A stretch of 64,000 nucleotides of DNA from Halobacteria archaeon HArc-gm2 (lineage in GTDB: Archaea > Halobacteriota > Halobacteria > Halobacteriales > Haloarculaceae), in NCBI GenBank assembly GCA_025517465.1, contig JAOPKE010000003.1, positions 248,001-312,000 on the forward strand. The letters run 5' to 3'. Made by a program: the position numbers and the translations under genes. Under the pieces are notes generated by a model. It had not been told where the DNA came from. It saw only the letters and a list, made by a program, of their open reading frames with translations, and made no database searches. This document shows positions 18,822 through 45,879 of the stretch, piece after piece (within the stretch, counting starts at the first letter, position 1; every line of letters begins with the position of its first letter).

Positions 18822-18875
18822 TTTCTAATCGTCTTCAGGTAGCTCTAGGGAGTATTTGGTAGTTGCGAAGTAAGC

Positions 18876-18999
18876 TTGGTTCTGATCGGAGTGAAGAACC
18901 AAGTTATTGCGAACGGGGAGCGCCAGCGACCCGTGAGCAGCGGGGTCGCGAACGGAGTGAAGAACCAGGTTATAGCGAACGGCGACCGGAGGAAGCCGT
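18876..18999. repeat. Modular hairpin repeat between atpH and the methyltransferase gene
   Basis: A perfect 8-bp stem (TTGGTTCT/AGAACCAA, 18876-18902) with loop GATCGGAGTGA is followed by spacer GCGAACGGGGAGCG, CCCGTGAGCAGC and a second related hairpin. Stems and spacers match the modular repeat style of 2221-2625. It occupies the divergent promoter region of the ATPase cluster. Confidence 0.65.
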
Positions 19000-22903: not shown

Positions 22904-23695
22904 GTGAAAATTCTTGTCACGGTCAAGGAGGTGACCGTCGTCGACGACGAGTTCGAGATCGACGGGCTCTCGATCGACGACCGGTACGTGACCTACGACC
23001 TCAACGAGTGGGACGAGTACGCCGTCGAGGAGGCCGTCACGATAGCCGAAGACGTCGAGGACGTCGAGGTGGTGACCGTCACCGTCGGCCCGGAACGCGC
23101 CGACGAGACCATCCGGCAGGCGCTGGCCAAGGGCGCCGACCGCGCCGTTCGCGTCTGGGACGACCGACTGGCAGAGGCGAGCATGCTGGATCCGGCGACG
23201 AAAGCACGCCTGCTCGGTGCCGTCGCCGAGGAAGAGGACCCGGACCTCGTCCTGACCGGCGTGCAGTCGGGCGACGATAGCCTGGGCGCCACCGGCGTCT
23301 CGCTGGCCGAACGGCTCGAGATGGGCTGGGCGGCGGTCGTCAACCAGCTGGATCTCAGTGCGGACGAGGGTGTGGCGCACGTCCACCGCGAGCTGGAGGG
23401 CGGCGTCGACGAGATATCCGACGTCGAGCTCCCGGCGGTGTTGACCATCCAGACGGGCATCAACGACCCGCGGTACGCCAGCCTCCGCGGGATTCGCCAG
23501 GCCCAGAGCAAGGACTTAGCCGTGAAGTCACTCGACGACCTCGGGCTGGGCCCCGACGCCCTCGACAGCCCGATCGAACAGACGGCGCTGTACGAACCCG
23601 AGACCGAAGGCGAAGCGACCCTGTTCGAAGGCGGTGCCGGGGAGACAGCCGGTGAACTCGCCGGACTACTCCGGGAGAAGGGGGTGGGCCAGTGA
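22904..23695 (+). CDS. etfB: Electron transfer flavoprotein subunit beta
   Basis: This 263-residue beta subunit accepts electrons from acyl-CoA dehydrogenases and passes them on with EtfA. It uses a GTG start (MKILVTVKEV), the standard family N-terminus. It shows the conserved GADRAVRVWDD, LVLTGVQSGDDS and PAVLTIQTGINDPRYASLRGI segments of the ETF beta fold. The stop overlaps the GTG of etfA by 4 bp (GTGA), which points to coupled translation. Confidence 0.95.
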   Translation: MKILVTVKEVTVVDDEFEIDGLSIDDRYVTYDLNEWDEYAVEEAVTIAEDVEDVEVVTVTVGPERADETIRQALAKGADRAVRVWDDRLAEASMLDPATKARLLGAVAEEEDPDLVLTGVQSGDDSLGATGVSLAERLEMGWAAVVNQLDLSADEGVAHVHRELEGGVDEISDVELPAVLTIQTGINDPRYASLRGIRQAQSKDLAVKSLDDLGLGPDALDSPIEQTALYEPETEGEATLFEGGAGETAGELAGLLREKGVGQ

Positions 23696-24642
23696 CGGTC
23701 CTCGCCGTCGCGGAACACCGCCGCGGGGAACTCCGTGACGTGAGCGACCAGCTCGTCGCCGCCGGGTACGACCTCGCGGACGAGACCGACAGCGAGCTCC
23801 ACGTGGCCGTCGTCGGCGGCGACACGGCGGAGTACGGCGACCGGCTGAACCGACCGAGCGTCGACGTCGTCCACACCGTCGAGGCCGGTGCGGAGTTCAA
23901 CCACGACGTCTCCGTCCAGGCGGTCGAACAGCTGGTCGACGCAGTCGACCCGACCGTCCTCCTCCTGCCACACACCGTCAACGGGATGGACTACGCCCCC
24001 GCGGTGGCGAGCCAGCTCGATCGACCGCTGGTCACCGACGCGGTCGACCTGGCCGTCGACGACGACCTGACGGTGACGCGCGAACTGTACGGCTCGAAGG
24101 TGGAGACGACCGTCGACGTCCACGCTGACCGCGCCGTCGTGACGGTCCGGCCCGGCGAGTGGCCACCGGCGGACGGGAACGGCGAGGCCAGCGTCGAGGC
24201 ATTCGACGCGACTATCGACGAGTCACAGGTCCGCTCGACGGTCACCGGGTTCGAGGAGGCCGTCAGCGGCGACGTCGACATCACGGACGCCGACGTCCTG
24301 GTCTCGGTCGGCCGCGGCATCGAGGAAGAGGAGAACCTCGACCTCGTCCGCGACCTGGCCGACGCCCTCGGCGCGACGCTGTCGGCGTCCCGACCGATCG
24401 TCGACAACGGCTGGCTCCCCGCCGACCGCCAGGTCGGTCAGTCCGGCAAGGTCGTCACGCCGGACGTCTACCTCGCCATCGGCATCTCCGGCGCCGTCCA
24501 GCACGTCGCCGGCATGAAGGGCGCCGACACCATCGTCGCCATCAACAAAGACCCCAACGCGCCCATCTTCGACATCGCCGACTACGGCATCGTCGACGAC
24601 CTCTTCGACGTCGTCCCGGCCCTGACCGAGGAGTTTCAGTAA
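23692..24642 (+). CDS. etfA: Electron transfer flavoprotein subunit alpha
   Basis: This 316-residue FAD-binding alpha subunit carries the C-terminal FAD signature [20 protein letters not shown] and [17 protein letters not shown]. It pairs with EtfB. Its last 19 codons ([18 protein letters not shown] plus stop) are repeated 161 bp further on as [18 protein letters not shown] plus stop, with mostly third-position changes. The intact copy is the one joined to the gene. A hairpin terminator follows. Confidence 0.95.
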
Positions 24643-24647
24643 TCGAA

Positions 24648-24679
24648 CACGCCCGAGCACTGCGAGGGCGTGCCTTTTT
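24648..24679 (+). terminator. Hairpin-T terminator of etfA
   Basis: CACGCCC (24648-24654) pairs with GGGCGTG (24666-24672), followed by CCTTTTT. The same structure recurs at 24809-24840 in the duplicated unit. Confidence 0.75.
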
Positions 24680-24742
24680 CGCCCACGTTTTTCGACGAGC
24701 GGTTCGCGAGCACAGCGAGCGGACCCGAGGAGAAAAAGGTGG
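24680..24742. repeat. CGCCCACGTTTTT...AAAAAGGTGG hairpin module, etfA locus
   Basis: This 63-bp module begins CGCCCACGTTTTTC and ends GAAAAAGGTGG; the ends are near-perfect inverted repeats. The core CGAGCGGTTCGCGAGC is also palindromic in style. A related module at 45757-45812 sits in the same position at pitA. Its left 39 bp (24683-24721) recur exactly at 24895-24933, without the right half. Confidence 0.75.
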
Positions 24743-24845
24743 TACTGGCATCGTCGACGACCTCTTCGACGTCGTGCCGGCGCTAACTGAAGAGTTCAGG
24801 TGATCGATCACGCCCGAGCACCGCGAGGGCGTGCCTTTTTCGCCA

Positions 24846-25059
24846 CCGGGAGAGCAGCGCTCTCCCGAGCCCACGCTCGCTCCGCTCGCGTGGACCACGT
24901 TTTTCGACGAGCGGTTCGCGAGCACAGCGAGCGAACGGATCCCACAGAGCCACGCGTCCAGGGGGTACCGTTCCTGGACGAACGACGACACCGTCGTCGA
25001 AAACACACCCACGATCGCATCCGTCAGCTACTTGCCCACCTCTCCCAAAGCCACGCCAC
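24846..25059. repeat. Further hairpins before the prenyltransferase gene
   Basis: Perfect hairpins GGGAGAG/CTCTCCC (24848-24866) and CCACGC/GCGTGG (24871-24893) are followed by the partial module at 24895-24933. The remainder up to 25059 should hold the promoter of the next gene, but I see no clear TATA box. Confidence 0.6.
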
Positions 25060-43616: not shown

Positions 43617-43673
43617 TCGAACGCACGCGCGGACATGGGAAGTTTCCTTACCGTCCGCACGAAACCCTCGGAC

Positions 43674-45716
43674 ATGACGAGAGAGCCCCCACAGACCGAG
43701 GAGGGGTGGTACGCGCTCCACGACCTGCGACGCATCGACTGGGACGCCTGGCGGGAGGCGTCCGCCCGCGACCAGGAACGCGCCCTGGTCGACGGCATCG
43801 ACTTCCTGGAGTACTACGAGGGCGTGGAGGACGCCGAGGAGGGCCAGACGGCCGTCTACACCATCCAGGGCCACAAGGCCGACCTCATGGTCGTCCACCT
43901 GCGACCGACGATGGCCGACGTCGACGCCGCCGAGCGCCAGTTCGAGCAGACCGAGTTCGCCCGCTACACCGACCGCGCGACGTCGTACGTCTCCGTAACC
44001 GAGGCCTCGGGGTACACCGACAAGGCCAAGGAGTACTTCGACGGCGAGGTCGACGACGACTCCGGCCTGGCGAAGTACATCCGGTCGCGGCTCCACCCGG
44101 ACATCCCCGACGACGAGTTCGTCTGCTTCTACCCGATGAACAAGCGCCGCGACCCGGGGCAGAACTGGTACGACATGCCGTTCGACGAGCGCGCCGAGCA
44201 CATCGAGCGTCACGGCGATATCGGCCGAAGCTACGGCGGGAAGGTCTCGCAGATGATCGCCGGCTCCGTCGGCTTCGACGACTGGGAGTGGGGGATCACG
44301 CTGTGGGCCGACGACATGACCGACGTCAAGGACCTGCTGACCGAGATGCGCTTCGACCCCTCGACGTCGAAGTTCGCCGAGTTCGGCTCCTTCTACGTCG
44401 GCCGCCGCTTCCGGCCGGGCGATCTCCCCGCCGTCATGGCGGGCGAACGCGTCCCGACGGGCGAGGGGGAGTCAGCCGCGAGCGGTGAGCGGGTCGCCCA
44501 CGCCAGCGCTGGGAACAGTTCGCCGACCGGCGACGGCGACCGGCCGACGGCGACGACCGCCCGGACGGCCGGCGACGCAGGCGACACGGGTGGTGCCCAT
44601 CCCGGAAGCGCCGGCGAGGGCGACCACCCGCACGCCGGGGACGCTGCCAGCGACGACGGCGGTAGCACCGCGGAATCCGCGGACGACGAGAGGTCGGCGG
44701 ACGAGGATTCCTCGTCCGGCGGCCCGCCGATGGGCGGCGGCGGCGAGTTCGCCGAGGTCGACGATCTCGGGCAGCGTCTCGGCTCCCTCGGCGTCCGAGA
44801 AGGTGAGGACTACGACGCCGGTGACTACGGTCTACTGTTCCACTCCGAGGCCGACGCCGAGGAACTGGCCGAAGAGGTCGAGGGGCTGCGCTCGAACTTC
44901 GACCACTACGACCGCCACGTTCTGACGAGCGTCCGCGCCCAGGGCGGCCAGGCGGCCGTCGTGAGCGTCTGGACGGCGAAGGAGGCCGCCGAGACGGCCG
45001 CCGGCTTCCTCGGCGACCTCCCGGGCATCGACGAATGCTACGGTGGCCACCTCGGCGAAGGGGGCGGGGCCGGGGATGCCGACGCGACCGACGAGTCGGC
45101 AGCTGGTGACGCTGACGAGGACACCGACGAGGAGGACTCCATCCGCGAGGAACTGTCCGATCTCGACATCTACGCCGGAAAGCCCCACGGCGAGGACGTC
45201 TACGCGCTGGTGCTGTACTCGGAGACCGACCCCGTCGAACTCGCCGCCGAAGTCGACGGCCTGCGCGAGCACTTCGTCCGCTACGACAGCCACGTCAAGA
45301 CGGCGGTGTACAGGGACGCGCCCGCGGAGACCGTCGCCGTCGTCAGCCTCTGGAAGACGCGGGACGCCGCCGACACCGCCAGCGAGCACCTGGCGGACCT
45401 CCCCGGCGTCGTCGGCCGCCCGGAGCACGAGGACGGCTTCGGGACGATGGGGATGTTCTACACCGTCAAGCCCGAGCACCGCGAGGAGTTCGTCGAGACG
45501 TTCGGCGAGGTCGGCGGGATGCTCGCGGAGATGGACGGCCACCGGGAGACGGCCCTGCTGGCCAACCGCGAGGACGAGAACGACATGTTCATCGCCAGCC
45601 AGTGGGACGCGAAGGAGGACGCCATGGCGTTCTTCCGCTCGGACGCCTTCGCAGACACCGTCGAGTGGGGCCGGGACGTGCTAGCTGACCGGCCGCGGCA
45701 CGTCTTCCTGGCCTAA
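43674..45716 (+). CDS. pitA: PitA: chlorite-dismutase/HemQ-like haem protein fused to repeated ABM-type domains
   Basis: This 680-residue protein has an N-terminal HemQ/chlorite dismutase-like domain (about 8-265). H180 in ERHGDIGRSYGGKVSQ fits the axial haem ligand; a Gln follows 13 residues on, as in HemQ. A long acidic linker (about 270-355) leads to two similar domains (about 365-460 and 495-590, with GLLFHSEADAEELAEEVEGL and ALVLYSETDPVELAAEVDGL), then a C-terminal ABM domain (about 595-680). HemQ decarboxylates coproheme; haloarchaeal PitA is the known Cld-ABM fusion. Two internal domain copies make it longer than the simple fusion. Its last 46 bases are duplicated downstream. Confidence 0.9.
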   Translation: MTREPPQTEEGWYALHDLRRIDWDAWREASARDQERALVDGIDFLEYYEGVEDAEEGQTAVYTIQGHKADLMVVHLRPTMADVDAAERQFEQTEFARYTDRATSYVSVTEASGYTDKAKEYFDGEVDDDSGLAKYIRSRLHPDIPDDEFVCFYPMNKRRDPGQNWYDMPFDERAEHIERHGDIGRSYGGKVSQMIAGSVGFDDWEWGITLWADDMTDVKDLLTEMRFDPSTSKFAEFGSFYVGRRFRPGDLPAVMAGERVPTGEGESAASGERVAHASAGNSSPTGDGDRPTATTARTAGDAGDTGGAHPGSAGEGDHPHAGDAASDDGGSTAESADDERSADEDSSSGGPPMGGGGEFAEVDDLGQRLGSLGVREGEDYDAGDYGLLFHSEADAEELAEEVEGLRSNFDHYDRHVLTSVRAQGGQAAVVSVWTAKEAAETAAGFLGDLPGIDECYGGHLGEGGGAGDADATDESAAGDADEDTDEEDSIREELSDLDIYAGKPHGEDVYALVLYSETDPVELAAEVDGLREHFVRYDSHVKTAVYRDAPAETVAVVSLWKTRDAADTASEHLADLPGVVGRPEHEDGFGTMGMFYTVKPEHREEFVETFGEVGGMLAEMDGHRETALLANREDENDMFIASQWDAKEDAMAFFRSDAFADTVEWGRDVLADRPRHVFLA

Positions 45717-45721
45717 GTCAG

Positions 45722-45756
45722 CGGACACGAGCGAAGCGAGTGTCCGTTTTTTTTTT
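45722..45756 (+). terminator. Hairpin-T terminator of pitA
   Basis: CGGACAC (45722-45728) pairs with GTGTCCG (45740-45746), followed by ten Ts (45747-45756). The hairpin starts six bases after the stop codon. Confidence 0.75.
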
Positions 45757-45812
45757 CGCCCACGTTTTTGCGCGAGCGGTGCGCGGAGCGCACCCGAAGC
45801 GGAAAAAGGTGG
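45757..45812. repeat. CGCCCACGTTTTT...AAAAAGGTGG hairpin module, pitA locus
   Basis: This 56-bp module begins CGCCCACGTTTTTG and ends GGAAAAAGGTGG, like that at 24680-24742. Its core GAGCGGTGCGCGGAGCGCACC is palindromic. Confidence 0.75.
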
Positions 45813-45879
45813 AGTCGGGGCCGGGACGTGCTAGCTGACCGGCCGCGGCACGTCTTCCTGGCGTAGGCCGGCGCGCGAC

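Follow-up and report, generated by a model that had tools for sequence, protein, structure and literature searches.

The window analysed here, a 64,000-nucleotide stretch of the genome of Halobacteria archaeon HArc-gm2, carries the complete gene pitA, whose product has chlorite dismutase and ABM domains (1040 bits against NCBIfam PRK09565) and whose 3' end is present twice (Table 1). As a sequence-only reading of the window had claimed, the 46-bp gene end at 45667-45712 is repeated exactly at 45817-45862 (spacing 150), and both copies run in the same tail frame into an in-frame stop codon (CTGGCC-TAA at 45714-45716 and CTGGCG-TAG at 45864-45866); across 57 nt the copies are 93% identical. The spacer likewise has the contents described, a hairpin with a tract of ten T residues followed by a module (hereafter M) of the form CGCCCACGTTTTT...AAAAAGGTGG. 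The true start of the second copy is position 45813, where AGT (equivalent to gene positions 45664-45666) is followed by an extra C and then by GGGGCC. The same reading had placed a second case at etfA, and this gene end does share the anatomy of pitA, in the order tail copy 1 (T1), module, tail copy 2 (T2), with diverged copies.

Table 1. Features of the pitA and etfA gene ends (window coordinates).
Feature	Position	Strand	Remark
etfA (electron transfer flavoprotein alpha), complete gene	23692..24642	+	
etfA tail copy 1 with its terminator	24586..24682	+	tail proper to 24642; terminator to TTTTTCGC
Module M at etfA	24683..24742	+	
etfA tail copy 2 with terminator copy	24743..24844	+	TAC + extra T + GGCATC...; TGA stop at 24801-24803
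Left-half module relic 3' of etfA tail copy 2	24895..24936	+	inner hairpin as in the module at 24683
pitA (chlorite dismutase/ABM heme protein), complete, including tail copy 1	43635..45716	+	start codon per longest ORF
pitA tail copy 1 (T1)	45664..45716	+	functional gene end, TAA
pitA terminator hairpin and T tract	45722..45756	+	CGGACACGAGCGAAGCGAGTGTCCG + T tract
Module M at pitA	45757..45812	+	CGC-CCAC-G-TTTTT ... hairpin ... AAAAA-G-GTGG
pitA tail copy 2 (T2)	45813..45866	+	AGT + extra C (45816) + GGGGCC... to TAG

Of 53 predicted gene ends tested across the window, those of pitA (score 47) and etfA (37.5) are the only two accompanied by a tail copy, the next best scoring 16, and none of the ends lacking a module has one. 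The two-ended module pattern has one exact match in the window and none in 100 shuffles. Further intergenic hairpin-repeat clusters, of the GCGAGCGNAGCGAGC type, lie at 2228-2630 and 18873-18988 and show no tail duplication.

M is an imperfect inverted repeat of 52-72 bp. Its parts are an end stem of 4 bp, C(C/G)AC/GT(G/C)G, a G-G mismatch, a T5/A5 stem, an internal loop rich in purines, and a hairpin tip that varies. The one pair of the end stem that differs between modules does so by covariation in 91 of 91 cases, and the structure yields 18 double-changed cells as compared with 4.8 in shuffles. In single-stranded DNA folding, the pitA module is better than 200 of 200 shuffles (z -4.4), while that of etfA is not outstanding (z -1.2). 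No Rfam family matches either module: etfA gives only HgcF at 14 bits (cut-off 70), and pitA gives nothing. An outer pairing, CGC/GYG, beyond the module end was dropped as its covariation was not above that of shuffles, and a left-end repeat, ATAGAACNGTTNGCA, which adjoins some modules in genomes G002 and G005, was set aside as not general (4 of 59 genomes). A T5 tract is present on both strands of M, in the commonest form as T5C on both, and since in Haloferax volcanii T5C terminates ~95% of transcripts (PMC7237163), M is, to judge from its sequence, most likely a terminator that works in both directions.

The sequence-only reading had argued from two unrelated genes for one mechanism rather than chance, and counts beyond the window strongly support that argument. 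The genome from which the window is taken has seven exact copies of the 13-mer CGCCCACGTTTTT, six of them with a duplicated gene end; wider patterns identify 25 modules there and a covariance model 29. Within 10 nt of the module 3' end, a tail copy was found for 12 of the 25 modules examined, at the genes etfA, pitA, ornithine cyclodeaminase (TIGR00300), argF, spt5, pheT (by inspection), a radical SAM gene, the gene at locus L029, malic enzyme/PTA, thiolase, phosphogluconate dehydrogenase and proS, with at least 13 of the 25 lacking one. Across 13 haloarchaeal genomes, ~46 of 104 modules (a set that is not fully independent, some loci being orthologous) are followed by a tail copy, always beginning at the module 3' end (-3 to +10 nt). 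These events score 18-143, the 95% quantile of control pairings between unrelated loci being 13.5; one decayed case (L067, score 12.5) was counted as a remnant. The covariance model finds matches in 122 of the 146 genomes of the order, with a tail copy at 11 of 45 sampled loci of that search. The pitA arrangement itself is present in at least eight species: in genomes G000, G001, G003 and G004 and, out of a further ~70 pitA ends that could be read, in Haloarcula amylovorans, Halorhabdus salina, Halegenticoccus tardaugens and Haloferacaceae XH8.

Coincidence had been named as the explanation to adopt if most modules lacked flanking duplications. Here the outcome is borderline, as about half of them do, and these stand mostly in other contexts, with a convergent stop codon or tRNA 3' end adjoining. 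A convergent stop codon lies within 15 nt of 26 of the 58 modules without a tail copy but of only 2 of the 46 with one, and several further copy-less modules adjoin the 3' end of a convergent tRNA gene, as judged from the sequence. Both positions fit a bidirectional terminator. At L058, L093, L112, L123 and L158, the right end of the module lies directly against the 3' end of an apparent convergent tRNA gene.

Where a tail copy is present, the right end of M (GGTGG or GGTCG) is joined straight to a point, s, in the tail of the upstream gene. This junction has a fixed form, ...AAAAAGGT(G/C)G, three gene bases, often an extra pyrimidine, and then the gene tail. The three bases 3' of GGTSG match the gene in most events, and after them a single base, usually a pyrimidine, is inserted in at least 13 events at unrelated genes (inserted base in brackets: pitA AGT[C]GGGG, etfA TAC[T]GGC, thiolase CAG[C]GGG, radical SAM GAC[T]GGG, L082 ATG[C]GGG, ileS ATG[T]GAC); at pitA of Haloarcula amylovorans the junction reads TGG[C]GGCC. 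Completion of the outer stem by the extra base was tested as an explanation and is unsupported by covariation. The junction is too regular for random breakage, and its signature points to a defined enzymatic step. The remaining boundaries vary: the ~75-270 bp that begin at s and end shortly after the stop codon or terminator are found on both sides of M, the identity length of the tail copy ranges from ~25 to 200 bp, and T1 ends on the right at the stop codon, in mid-UTR or past the T tract.

Orthologous gene ends show how such loci differ between lineages. Automatic classification of 69 ends (12 genes, six genomes of the same genus) assigned 13 to M with T2, 3 to M only, 6 to a left-half relic and 47 to none; inspection by eye added five with T2 and a non-canonical M (argF in G004, the radical SAM gene in G002 and G004, pheT in G005 and spt5 in G002), and two of the three M-only ends (spt5 in G001, phosphogluconate dehydrogenase in G006) keep short remnants of T2. 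A full M without any tail copy is thus rare at these loci, indicating that M and T2 arrive together. Empty orthologous sites consist of one continuous tail (pitA in G002, G005 and G006, thiolase in G006 and the L004 gene in G006), and argF, spt5, ileS and pitA have each been struck at different points s in different lineages. At phosphogluconate dehydrogenase in G000 and G006 (L054, L194), tail copy 1 ends one codon before tail copy 2 does, its stop codon being supplied by ATAGCATAC at the start of the inserted hairpin block; in G006, ~10 nt of tail copy 2 are left.

Taken together, the fixed breakpoint at the 3' hairpin base of M, the free joining point within 75-270 bp and the joint appearance of M and copy are best fitted by staggered insertion, and we tentatively favor, at slightly less than even confidence, a recurrent process in which M is joined to a gene tail by staggered insertion with a long target duplication, followed by later recombination. 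Under this proposal M would insert, or a hairpin-ended strand would re-join, at a pair of staggered positions, with s on one strand and p, close to the terminator of the gene, on the opposite one; we infer this long staggered-nick geometry from the end products. Fill-in would then produce the long target duplication, a pyrimidine often being added three bases in. Such an event would disrupt the gene unless T1 rebuilt a complete end, so that survivors would be expected close to the 3' end of a gene or in intergenic DNA; if 3' ends seem to be targeted, this may accordingly reflect the survival of only those insertions that rebuild the end. T1-M-T2 could subsequently act as a direct repeat in homologous recombination, by which T1 and T2 would be made alike, the [T-M] unit amplified into arrays, or M cleanly deleted. 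The agent may be the cell's own DNA repair or a trans-acting enzyme, and is probably not a reverse transcriptase.

The main rival is re-priming by a hairpin-ended strand, which differs from staggered insertion only in whether M stood there beforehand. Here, M would already lie behind the gene, and after a break or stalled replication at the hairpin base, the M-ended strand would re-prime upstream in the same gene, copying [tail-terminator-M] in tandem. The breakpoint fixed at the hairpin base, the 3-nt match with an added base, which resembles the scar of a template switch, the occurrence of tandem arrays and the left-half module relic behind some T2 copies (etfA, argF, L030) all agree with tandem duplication of this kind. 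We nonetheless regard it as an unlikely, if serious, alternative, given that most T2 copies, including that of pitA, have neither a second M nor a relic downstream, and that full M without T2 is nearly absent at the orthologous loci.

Differences between the two tail copies bear both on their age and on a second alternative. Of 697 aligned codons, T1 and T2 differ silently in 98 and by replacement in 32, and 108 of the 141 base differences fall at third positions. This silent share lies above what neutral decay of T2 beside a constrained T1 would give (by our estimate, about half), indicating that allele exchange between lineages contributes. A preponderance of silent differences, like those between two diverged alleles, is also what would be seen if a foreign [gene'-terminator-M] segment had entered by homology on its left and illegitimate joining on its right, with the native tail staying behind M, and in G006 (L086) T2 is partly closer than T1 to the ortholog of G001 and G003. 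Such one-sided recombination leaves unexplained why the donor should end constantly and exactly at the 3' end of M, and the identical copies within one species (pitA, the G003 array, G031) need no donor at all; we consider it rather improbable as the origin of the loci. The perfect identity of the pitA copies had been read, against the silent changes at etfA, as a sign of different ages, an idea that the comparison of four species contradicts. G000, G001, G003 and G004 share the junction of the pitA event, yet its copies agree within G000, G001 and G004, diverge within G003, and differ between species. Agreement within and difference between species imply that the pitA copies have been homogenized and that their identity is no marker of age.

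Homogenization is also apparent in arrays. G003 contains six units of 154 bp, the proximal ones near-identical and the distal ones diverged, T-M-T-M-T arrays are found in G031 and G154, and an array in G034 duplicates intergenic DNA. The tandem arrays show amplification and homogenization by recombination, and the intergenic array shows that gene tails are not needed as targets but are tolerated. In the G003 array (L351; G003:C2:818700-820700, reverse strand), the six tandem [tail-terminator-module] units stand behind a glutaredoxin-like gene; C-terminal codons differ in the distal units, so that divergence forms a gradient.

Near-identical intergenic copies of ~160-300 bp that end in M also occur at unrelated places, namely L065 and L077 in G004, L063, L075 and L083 in G002, and L344 and L356-L358 in G065; CTGTAYTGACC is found at one or both ends of some of them. 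These dispersed copies look to have been mobile recently. Several dispersed copies in G002, G004 and G065, together with a gene end rebuilt on one side and a partial copy on the other, might suggest a mini integrative element that uses gene tails as attachment cores for a site-specific recombinase supplied in trans, in the manner of islands that regenerate tRNA ends. This is, in our judgment, very unlikely, because there is no common core, many unrelated genes serve as targets, identity lengths vary from 25 to 200 bp and the units carry no recombinase gene. Still less probable is retroposition, in which a reverse transcriptase would copy an RNA ending at the 3' end of M onto a nicked gene tail. 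The 3' end that is fixed, the 5' end that varies and the long target duplications of differing size recall non-LTR retroposons, but RVT_1 (PF00078) was found in none of the 13 module-bearing genomes, whereas control genomes matched, and the idea, which would now call for a hidden polymerase outside RVT_1, is mostly refuted. A Y1 transposase, the enzyme that a REP/RAYT or IS200/IS605-derived element would use, is encoded in 10 of the 13 genomes; its absence from G002, G017 and G020, two of which (G002 and G020) have tail copies, led us to reject it as a universal agent.

We propose, with somewhat greater reserve than the process itself, that M represents an order-wide class of mobile bidirectional terminators that insert at the DNA level with a long host duplication, the gene end being rebuilt and a spare tail left, in a manner both reversible and amplifiable. 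M may be an element, selfish or useful, that persists by restoring the gene it has entered. The result is a recurrent, precise rearrangement at the 3' ends of essential genes across haloarchaea, which accounts for many spare gene tails that would be overlooked in annotation or labeled as pseudogene fragments, and M loci constitute a natural assay for archaeal DNA joining and duplication at hairpins. That four species belonging to a single genus have unstable direct repeats at one junction raises the question of selection on the arrangement. In the openly accessible literature that we searched, we came across no account of gene tails being duplicated at hairpins of this kind.

Several known systems share part of this anatomy. 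The T5C intrinsic terminators of Haloferax volcanii (PMC7237163) resemble M in having a T5C tract behind a hairpin, but M has T5 on both strands within a conserved stem, plus the tail duplication. Integron attC sites are likewise imperfect palindromes behind genes, with conserved ends, an unpaired internal loop and a variable tip; GTTRRRY/RYYYAAC boxes were not seen by eye in M, however, and the genes with M are chromosomal housekeeping genes. REP/REPIN sequences, MITE-type hairpin repeats and haloarchaeal PATEs are, like M, short, non-coding imperfect inverted repeats that lie between genes and are present several times per genome. To our knowledge, none of them has the end of a neighboring gene copied behind it over 30-200 bp, and the usual form of M shows neither a GTAG/CGTC tag nor a short fixed target duplication. 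M does possess the terminal inverted repeats of a MITE or classical insertion element (C(C/G)AC-G-TTTTT / AAAAA-G-GT(G/C)G), while its duplications of ~25 to 200 bp differ from the fixed, short ones of such elements. The archaeal tyrosine-recombinase islands, integrative elements that restore the 3' end of a tRNA gene or another gene, also leave a complete gene end on one side and a partial 3' copy on the other. In contrast to these islands, M units are only 138-331 bp long, too short for an integrase gene, and lack a shared core, and instead of one preferred target they have entered pitA, etfA, argF, spt5, pheT, proS, ileS, thiolase and others.
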